The position numbers and the translations under genes are program-made. 64,000 bases of DNA from Hydractinia symbiolongicarpus (lineage: Eukaryota > Cnidaria > Hydrozoa > Anthoathecata > Hydractiniidae), in assembly GCF_029227915.1 (NCBI RefSeq), contig NC_079877.1:16540851-16604850 (forward strand), read 5' to 3'. Below are positions 25,731 through 32,872 of the stretch, piece after piece. Each line of letters starts with the position of its first letter. Positions within the stretch are counted from its first letter, which is position 1. The notes under the pieces are model-generated. The model was given only the letters and a program-made list of their open reading frames with translations. It searched no databases and was not told the origin of the DNA.

Positions 25731-28700
25731 ATGAAGTCAGTTGGTCTAAAGCAAAAATCAGAAGGAAGACTTCCTGTGTTTGTGTTTCCTACAGTATTAA
25801 ACTTCTATATCAACGATCAAAGCTCTCACAAACAAGTCCTAACATTGTACAATCCTTATGATTTTACAGTTCAATTTAAAGGTATATAATATAGCATATA
25901 CAATGCAACTAACAATTATTTTTGATTATTTTTATTTATATATTTGCATTTGCTTTAAAAATTCTGGGATATTCCACCATAATTGAGTACCCCGATTTTA
26001 GTACAGGTAAAACCTTTTTTTCTTCTTTACCAAGCCATCACATGAAGCATCTTCAATGCACAGGATGTTCTAAAGCAAGTAAACTTTATCTTAACCTTAA
26101 TCTTGAAAATAAGATGATTCATTATGGGTTTCACTTTCCATTAAATCAACATTTTCGAAATCTGTGCAAGAACTGATTCATGTTAGTTAGCTTTAATGAA
26201 ATAATTTTTTGTGATTTTGCGAATCAAAATTTCCCTGTTTTCACAACAAGAACCCAATTTCCTGAATGGATAATTCTAATAAATTTTACTAGAATTTAGT
26301 TCAGCGAATTTTAAATTTCCTATTTATATTATCTTATAGAAAATTTAATTTGCTTTTATATATATTGAATATATATATAAATATTTTTTTTAAAAAAAGC
26401 AAACAGAACTTTTAAAAAATAATGAATATACTGAATTTGTGTCTGAATTATTACAGTATCATTAACATGGTAAGGATTCTCGGAACCTGTGTATGAATTC
26501 GCTGATTGAAGACTCTTCAGTTCTACACCTGGAACAATGTCAGGCGAAGAAAAAAACTTTTTTGTTGAAATTTGTAAAAAGAAAGTACTTCCCAATCAAG
26601 AATTGCCAAATTTTCGAAAACACAACAAATTTTTATTCCCACATTTTCCAAAAAAAAAAAGGATTTAAAAAAATTCTCAATAATTTAGTTTTGCAAATAA
26701 CAGAATTAGTGCCAGCCCTAAGGCACAAAACAGGTTCTTTGTGCACAATAAAAGGTCAAAACGGCGTAATTACTAAATAATTAAGCCATAAATATATATA
26801 AAATAAATGTTAACATAGTTTTTATAAACGGATGTGATCCTGGCTTAAGAAAAGCCAAAAACTTATCGAAAAATATGTCTTTTTAATGTCCAACTATATA
26901 CAATTCTTTGTCTTTAAAGAAATTTGTGAAAATTATTGTATACTTTCTTTCTTAGTGTTATGCAACAATCCCACAAAATATAATGTGGTTGAATCAGAAG
27001 GATTAATCAAACAAAAATGTTGTATTGATATGTGAGAGCTTCTTTTGTTTCTAGTATTTACTTTAGTCCTGCTTGAAATTGTCATTAATTCATCTTAGTG
27101 TTTACTCATAAATATGCTGTCAGATTAAAAACACAGTGAAATATGAGCAGTATGATGCCTATAATCAGATGAGTTTTAAAGAATTTAGGTCAATGCTTAG
27201 ACTTTGTGCGATTGCATTTATATTTCTTTGTAATAAAATAAGTATATAACTTTTGTTTTACTCAGACTTGCGAGTTCAGTAACCTCTGCATGGGTTAAAT
27301 GTTCTAGATTGATTTCAAAGCCTGAATCACCGTGTTGTTAGGGTGTGTTTGTTTTCTGATAGTTTTTCACCTTTTTTTTAATATATATTATTTATTAGAG
27401 TCATTCGAGTTACTAATCTTCGTGTGGGTGGTCACCATGAAGATAAATTTCGTGTACATATATACGAGCATGGTTTAACAAATTTGCTTGGTAAAACAGA
27501 TGTAATTGCAGTTCTTTCCCAGTCAGAAAGACAGGATACTTCAAAGGTATACTTTTGTATAGGAATCTGCAGCATATAATTCCTACATTGTGATTTTTCT
27601 ACCTTATCAGAATTAATTTGCGCAAATTTCGAGAGTTATTTGTCAAGTTCGCGAAAATTAGTTTCCACGAAAATAAATGAGTAACTTTCTATTTGCGAAA
27701 TTTGCGCAATTTAATTCTCTTGAAATGTAGTTATTTATATATATTTATATTTAAAAAATTTATACTGTTTTTCCTTCTGATTTCCCAACTAGTATAATAT
27801 ATAAACTTCAACTTTAGCAGTCTTTATTTTATGTTTCTTACATGAAAGCCCTTAAAATACCGTATAAATTGAAAGAAAATGGCATTAAGTTTTTTTGCGA
27901 ATTTCGCGAAATTTAATTTCCGCTAAATATTAGGATTTACTTACTAGCTTCGCAAAAATTAAAATTTTTTAAATTTTCTGCGAAAAATTACTCGCATTTT
28001 TTTTTTTTTTTTTTTGTAACTCGATTTCTCACGAAATTAATTCCCTTATTGTACTTAATTGTTTAACTGAAACAATTGTTAGAAAGTTTTTTTCTTTATT
28101 TTCATCATTCCATCTTCTGTACTACTAGAGTTCACGGATGTATTCTGGAAGGCCAACTTCAAAAGATATAGATGAGCTGTTTTTGCAGCAAAGACGTGGT
28201 ATGGCTTAATTTTATTTATCTCTATATTTTTTTCTATTCTATTTTTTAAGAACTGTCACATGAGAAACCTTTATTCTAAATTTGTTTGAAAAAAACTTTC
28301 CTAAATATCTGCCATAAAGACTTTCAACATTTTTACATTTGTTTTAGAATCCGTTATAGTGCAAAGATCTCTACCAAGCATTCCGGTCATGATTGTATCA
28401 CTTGTTTGTGTTATTATTTTAATGTTGCCAGCATACGGTGATCCAACTGCCAATATATCAGTGCCGTTGTATCTTCATATGTCTATGAATCAAAAGTTGA
28501 TTGCATCATATATTCTTGGTAAATAACTTTTAAATGCTTTTTTAAAGGGGAAGTTCGGTCAAAAAAAATAAATTTATTTTATTTTATAATTCCATGTATT
28601 TATACTTATAAAAACAAAAAAACTTTACTTCATTAAACTTGGAGTTTCGGAAATGTCTCTAATGTTGACACAAACTTCTCGAAAATGCTCCGTTTTTGAA

Positions 28701-31700: not shown

Positions 31701-32872
31701 TGTTTTGTAAAATTAAACAAGGTCGGAACAGCACCATCTTTTAATTTCTTCCGCGGTGGAGAACCCATTAGTTCAGCCTAGAAATTTAAAAATAATAGAT
31801 TTCCATTACCCCCGTCTTACGAAAGCACATGTTCTTGAAGGATTTTTCGATGTTAAAAAAACATTCAGCACTGAGGGAAAGAAAATGCGAACATGCGAAG
31901 AAAATATAATGATTTTTTTTGACATGGTTTTCTTTTGGAAATGGCTGTAATAAATGAAACTGTGTTGAATTTTTCTAAATACGAGAAAGACAAATGTTTG
32001 GCTGTTTGGTGAAACATAGGTAACGAAAAGACTTACTTGTAAATCTCTTTCGAAGCACTCTGGTTCAAAATGATGAGAACAAATATAAAACCCAGAGTCT
32101 TTCGGCAAGGTACCACTTCTTTTTATATTGTGTAGCCATTTATTCCGAAGCTCTTTATCTTTTTTCGCACTAGGAATGTGATAAAATACTACCCGGATTT
32201 TTCTTTCGTTGTTATCTTCGTCTTTTGTCGTAAGCTTTTCGTTATCTACCTCCTTATTTTCCTCGCTTCCCTTACCCTTTTCTGTCTTTTTATTATTGCT
32301 ACTTCGATTTGTACAGCCGATGGCAGCACAGTTTGGCATATTGAAATAATAAAATGCATAAACAAAACGCTTCTTCGTGTGATTACACCTAATCCCCAAC
32401 ACCGAACTTCGCTTTTTGAACTATAAAACGTCATAATTCAAACTCGACCCAGCCTTCGTAAAAACGTAAAGGGGTCAGTCTACGGAGGTGTTTTTACGCG
32501 TGGTTAACACAGATTATTTCAAAAAAATAAGGGTTTCGTTTAAAAAGAATTATCGTATTCTTTTTTTTTCTTTTATGACTATTGATTATGAAAATATAAT
32601 TTTTGACCGAACTTCCCCTTTAAGTGAATAATGTAAAATAAAGTGTTAATTAGCTACGAGACGCATTAATAAGAGTGGTAATCTTCATATCATCAAATGC
32701 ATTTCGTTCAATGGTGCAATACTTCAAGTTCAAGTTATTAGGAGTGTATTTTATAGTGTATTTTTTATATGTTTGTCCTACGTGTTCCATTTACAGCAAG
32801 CACTGTGTTTATCTCTTTAACATTTACATTCTTTATTTAGGTCTTGTAACAATGGCGGTGTTGAAAACGTGA
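25731..32872 (+). CDS. MOSPD1/3-type MSP-domain membrane protein
   Basis: A VAP-related protein with an MSP domain facing the cytosol and two C-terminal membrane helices; MOSPD1/3 proteins act at ER contact sites. Exons 25731-25881, 26956-27031, 27399-27546, 28129-28195, 28348-28518 and 32841-32872 join in phase to 214 residues. The MSP domain includes [64 protein letters not shown] and IAVLSQSE. The first membrane helix is [20 protein letters not shown]; the second is [20 protein letters not shown], which straddles the last splice. The final exon is only 32 bp, 4.3 kb downstream across an intact Kolobok transposon. Order and spacing match vertebrate MOSPD1; MOSPD3 is equally possible. Confidence 0.94.
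27610..27717. repeat. Short inverted-repeat element
   Basis: The left arm GAATTAATTTGCGCAAATTT (27610 on) is repeated inverted at 27696-27717 with one change. The core is rich in GCGAAA words. Similar words occur at 27885-28045, suggesting a local family of fold-back repeats in MOSPD introns. Confidence 0.55.
28896..29677 (+). CDS. P2X7 'ballast'-like cysteine-rich protein of Kolobok
   Basis: Exons 28896-29178 and 29544-29677 join in phase to 138 residues. Residues 1-60 are acidic and Ser-rich. The second half holds a putative metal-binding cluster: WCQCGGHC (Trp63, Cys64, Cys66, Cys70), LCCRD (Cys81, Cys82), [11 protein letters not shown] (Cys98) and VCLCKPVL (Cys109, Cys111). The order WC-x-C, CCR, CIT, hydrophobic-L is that of the cytoplasmic ballast (zinc-binding) domain of vertebrate P2X7 receptors; free-standing proteins with this domain are known in invertebrates. 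There is no membrane helix, so this is not a channel. A role in transposition, such as DNA or partner binding, is inference from position. The donor at 29179 matches the in-phase join. Confidence 0.75.
29692..32339 (-). CDS. Kolobok transposase with THAP domain
   Basis: Exons on the -: 32037-32339, 31646-31777 and 29692-31551, all phase 0, giving 764 residues without interruption. An N-terminal THAP domain binds DNA: Cys4, Cys9, a charged insertion at about residues 15-47, [20 protein letters not shown], and Cys87/His90 in [11 protein letters not shown]. Exon 2 ends the domain ([12 protein letters not shown]). Exon 3 has an acidic Ser-rich linker, then the catalytic region: [20 protein letters not shown] (about 422-441) with an Asp likely in the active site, [17 protein letters not shown] (about 488-504), [14 protein letters not shown], and a Cys/Trp/His block ([16 protein letters not shown]). 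The assignment to Kolobok rests on TTAA duplication, termini and THAP. It may be active, since no defect is visible. Confidence 0.88.

Follow-up and report, generated by a model that had tools for sequence, protein, structure and literature searches.

The Kol0 lineage of Kolobok DNA transposons encodes a second protein, KolX, in addition to its transposase, and this protein has been reported from vertebrates, annelids, cnidarians and sponges (PMC9587614). According to the same paper, KolX resembles residues 476-595 of human P2X7, with seven cysteines conserved, and its authors proposed that a fusion with KolX gave rise to P2X7 and that Nanor derives from KolX by domestication. The ballast of P2X7 is reported to bind two Zn ions and a guanine nucleotide (PMC9859053). 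In our literature search, the term KolX was found in PMC9587614 only, and Kolobok in combination with P2X7 in that paper and one review. Here we analyzed a 64-kb stretch of DNA (64,000 nucleotides, hereafter the window) from the hydroid Hydractinia symbiolongicarpus, in which an element at 28546-32619, flanked on either side by TTAA, encodes a THAP-domain transposase and a KolX protein. With a probability of about 0.8, we consider this element to be a copy of a cut-and-paste DNA transposon, a Kolobok of the Kol0 type, whose convergent KolX gene has been halved, and P2X7 to derive from domestication of the same module in vertebrates, as proposed by Kojima and Bao.

The predicted spliced KolX product starts with the ATG at 28896, consists of 138 residues and is acidic (28 D/E versus 13 K/R). 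It matched the Pfam family P2RX7_C (PF20478) with an E value of 7.3e-10 and 39.5 bits, above the curated cut-off of 23.5, over profile positions 30-127 of 192. Its homologue P0001, the uncharacterized 202-residue protein LOC130625322 of H. symbiolongicarpus, has the same sequence over the exon junction and covers positions 32-191 of this profile. The profile of the homologues matched P2X7 in the PDB with an E value of 4.1e-13, spanning residues 473-592; P0001 alone gave a P2X7 match at 4.9e-9, and its predicted fold supports the same domain. Thus, based on the Pfam match, the homologue profile and the fold, the second protein and the P2X7 ballast (PDB 6u9v and others) are homologous, with the Cys clusters WCxCxxC, CC and CIT in common. 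P2X7 differs in being a membrane receptor and in having a third cluster (PSC..IR), which the window KolX lacks. An earlier note on this DNA had described the acidic 138-residue protein with its Cys motifs and had suggested a profile or structure comparison with the P2X7 C-terminus. The motifs, including KQCIT, and the acidity were confirmed and the comparison gave significant matches, but only about the first half of the domain is present. Its central idea, a ballast homologue in a Kolobok element, is correct and already published: that mobile elements carry this domain was the right direction, but was stated for Kol0 in 2022, with P2X7 derived from it (PMC9587614). In the longer KolX homologues P0012, P0016, P0017 and P0021, acidic TQELxYSxDFS-type motifs recur N-terminal to the ballast; they are possible short interaction motifs.

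We compared the element with the features described for Kolobok. It has the 4-bp TTAA target site duplication, a mark common to piggyBac, and 5'-RR ... YY-3' termini (AG...CT); both are given as Kolobok criteria in PMC9587614. The left end with its target site reads TTAA followed by AGGGGAAGTTCGGTCAAAAA (28542-28565), and the exact reverse complement followed by TTAA is found at 32600-32623, as had been claimed for these perfect 20-bp ends. When up to three mismatches were allowed, the terminal 20-mer occurred at two sites only in the window, namely both element ends, and 100 shuffles gave a mean of 0.01 matches with a largest value of 1. Subterminal inverted repeats lie approximately 165-175 bp inward from each end, and 25 nt of their 43 nt are 96% alike. 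No further copies of the element were detected in the window, either by the terminal inverted repeats or by blastn at E ≤ 1e-3.

The transposase, predicted from three exons with GT/AG borders in phase 0, comprises 764 residues without an internal stop. We aligned its third exon with 11 relatives (alignment A3), and D278, D345, D366VWH369 and E493 were invariant. D366VWH369 corresponds to the C/DxxH motif located between the second D and E of Kolobok transposases, a motif also found in hAT, P, MuDR and Dada (PMC9587614). H425, H430, C441 and H443 were likewise invariant and C408 nearly so; these Cys/His residues lie between DxxH and E, as in Kolobok, and were assigned to a zinc finger by reading. 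The transposase search detected 266 relatives at E ≤ 1e-3, and the organisms named among the best 120 of them are all animals (Hydractinia, Mya, Mytilus, Ptychodera, Oculina and Holothuria). Two H. symbiolongicarpus transposases among the matches listed (P0068 and P0069) are only 44% identical to that of the window. No Pfam transposase model matched the window transposase at E ≤ 1, and its relative P0033 passed the Mutator model PF20700 at an E value of 1.8e-12. The THAP transposase and the Kolobok-type element recognized in the earlier note are therefore borne out, the former by the THAP match and the invariant DDE residues and the latter by TTAA, the RR..YY ends, the DxxH transposase and KolX. 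The coordinates are summarized in Table 1.

Table 1. Features of the Kolobok element in the window.
Feature	Position	Strand	Basis
TTAA target site duplication, left	28542..28545	.	sequence read
Left terminal inverted repeat, 20 bp, starts AG (5'-RR)	28546..28565	+	perfect pairing with right end
Left subterminal inverted repeat, 43 nt, 79% complementary to 32414-32456	28720..28762	+	
KolX exon 1: acidic N-terminus, LRPFKFEP motif, first and second Cys clusters	28896..29178	+	97% identity with P0001 across 96 residues
KolX intron, GT..AG, 365 bp, predicted	29179..29543	+	junction reproduces P0001 protein (FEGKQCITE)
KolX exon 2, truncated, including stop	29544..29677	+	homologous to P0001 through residue 119, then 19-residue diverged tail
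Transposase exon 3: DDE core, C-terminus aligned to end	29692..31551	-	D, D, DxxH and E unchanged in all 12 rows of the alignment
Transposase exon 2	31646..31777	-	like residues (DLQAELM) in P0033
Transposase exon 1, THAP domain	32037..32339	-	Pfam PF05485, E 2.1e-14 on spliced protein
Right subterminal inverted repeat, 43 nt	32414..32456	-	
Right terminal inverted repeat, 20 bp, ends CT (YY-3')	32600..32619	-	perfect pairing with left end
TTAA target site duplication, right	32620..32623	.	sequence read

The second gene of Kol0, KolX, is present in truncated form. The window element shares the TTAA target, RR..YY ends, DxxH transposase and second gene with the described Kol0 Kolobok (PMC9587614), and differs in that its KolX is cut off after approximately half of the ballast. 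The CCHC finger located behind the first catalytic D in KolobokP, KolobokE and KolobokD is lacking, as only one Cys was found by reading between the first and second D. Long terminal direct repeats of the KolobokP type (about 450 or 660 bp) were not detected when the element was compared with the window at E ≤ 1e-3. Another TTAA-targeting system has a KolX-related accessory protein that keeps the C-terminal part and lacks most of the seven Cys, whereas the window KolX retains the N-terminal part, including its first Cys clusters. The longest-contig value, 6468, is the same for the clusters P0025 (KolX) and P0080 (transposase), which hints at a possible pairing of the two genes on one contig.

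The direction of the transfer may be questioned. KolX may have been a host gene first and Kolobok cargo later, so that the P2X7 domain came from the host gene rather than from a transposon. Rump et al. reported one or few (<10) domain-bearing genes per species across Metazoa, with neighbouring markers common to sponge, molluscs, arthropods and echinoderms (PMC7016195), which favours such an origin. Nanor and the other free-standing ZCD proteins of that paper are likewise short and carry the same domain; they were reported as genes, and a word search of the main text found no words starting with 'transpos', whereas the window KolX sits in a transposon. However, KolX lies here within the element ends alongside the transposase and is the second protein of Kol0 across the animal groups named above, and a tick protein joins a 'TAHP' (sic, probably THAP) domain to a ballast-type domain (PMC7016195). 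We therefore regard a host-gene origin as unlikely. When KolX was looked for in viral contigs, five stretches matched a pattern and none of them was confirmed.

We then examined how far KolX extends in this copy. Of its first 119 residues, 116 are identical to P0001 and three are changed; 19 diverged residues and a stop follow, whereas P0001 runs 83 residues further through the remaining ballast. In alignment A1, which contains the window KolX and the best 12 of 28 protein matches (many lower matches are frames spanning one exon only), 10 counted positions of the second half were identical in all 12 homologues (A140, Y142, Q144, W148, I161, P162, S163, C164, I169 and R170 in P0001 numbering), and all of them are missing from the window KolX. 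The losses include the third of the Cys clusters used to define the P2X7 ballast domain (PMC7016195), (L/I/V)PSC...IR, which all 12 homologues have. In the alignment with P2X7, C98 of P0001 pairs with C506, and counting by hand from there, approximately 55 of the 120 residues of the P2X7 domain (473-592) are retained in the window KolX. The Pfam match covers only about the first half of the domain, compared with profile positions 32-191 in the 202-residue homologue, so that a complete ballast is probably not encoded here. The two convergent genes had been described as uninterrupted in the earlier note; both frames are indeed open, but KolX, when set against its homologues, is incomplete and breaks off within the conserved domain.

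The 138-residue protein could instead be a genuine short KolX that needs no more than its acidic N-terminus and first two Cys clusters, its subfamily having dropped the second half of the ballast while function was kept. The frame stays open past the break and its stop lies 14 bp from the transposase stop, the element ends are intact, the transposase is open, and the first 119 residues are nearly unchanged, all of which would fit. The IPSC..IR motif with its Cys is, however, universal in the aligned homologues and missing here, from residue 120 the tail aligns with them at NLR only, and no other copy with such an end was seen in the window, which makes this explanation improbable. By reading of the alignment, NLR possibly returns behind a 15-base insert and is followed by diverged sequence.

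An assembly or sequencing error is still less probable. In its favour, the truncation was seen in a single copy; against an error, there is no frameshift with a readable remainder, and the C-terminal parts of the homologues were not recovered in the window. These parts were taken from 19 of 22 proteins (P0001 and P0012-P0032; three were without the motif used for cutting), and their best E value was 0.12 in the window and 0.86 inside the element, the former match falling in a THAP frame that belongs to the remains of another transposon. No third KolX exon was found in the window by this search, and tblastn of the homologues gave the two known exons among the matches listed. Finally, a chance likeness of the Cys pattern to P2X7 is rejected on the basis of the Pfam match, the homologue profile, the P0001 search and the fold described above, even though the window KolX as a single sequence gave no PDB match at E ≤ 10.

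Returning to the Kol0-type copy with a halved KolX, the abrupt change past residue 119 resembles a deletion with filler. When gap repair following excision of a DNA transposon is interrupted, it can leave internal deletions with filler DNA, and we suggest that the C-terminal half of KolX may have been lost here in such a way. A short-word blastn search of the window with 29600-29700 revealed no source of the filler (29627-29677) among the first 20 matches, which were, apart from the segment itself, only exact matches of 12-13 bases and one of 21 bases at 90%, with E values of at least 0.07. By analogy with the family, the transposase would bind the terminal and subterminal repeats via its THAP domain, excise the element and insert it at TTAA. 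Full-length KolX may be an accessory protein with an acidic N-terminus carrying an LKPYxFEP-type motif and a Cys-rich, probably zinc-bound ballast, and it might conceivably help or regulate the transposase. Because the C-terminal half is lost, this copy would rely on KolX from another source, should the protein be required.

As a far more speculative idea, KolX of intact family members might be a subunit that binds zinc and guanine nucleotides and adjusts transposition to the state of the cell, and the P2X7 ballast might have inherited a sensing function from it; we consider this doubtful. If it were true, the half-domain copy would be a natural test of which half mobility needs. The sequence profile and the predicted fold support the proposal, made in 2022, that DNA transposons contain relatives of the ballast of a medically important receptor, and the present element adds a hydroid example. 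Being truncated, the window locus is ill-suited as a reference for the domain, and the 202-residue P0001 is better for structural or functional work.

Several other regions of the window gave matches. Broken remains of another transposon lie on the minus strand at 19871-21258, with parts in differing frames: THAP at 20881-21258 (E 9.7e-14), HTH_Tnp_4 at 20311-20592 (weak, below the cut-off) and DDE_Tnp_4 at 19871-20356 (E 1.4e-18). On the plus strand, an open frame at 9987-10709 matched the membrane region of neurotransmitter-gated ion channels (PF02932, E 6.4e-22), and a frame at 11752-12180 matched the family of TFIID 31-kDa subunits at its start, over profile positions 2-38 of 122 (PF02291, E 6.1e-11). 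A 270-residue frame at 35736-36548, also on the plus strand, matched the PI-PLC X domain slightly under the curated cut-off (21.1 versus 23.1 bits). On the minus strand, an open frame at 62550-62966 contains a run of RQTD repeats and probably represents a simple repeat, not a gene, and 22837-23259 matched HAD-type hydrolases (PF00702, E 1e-11).
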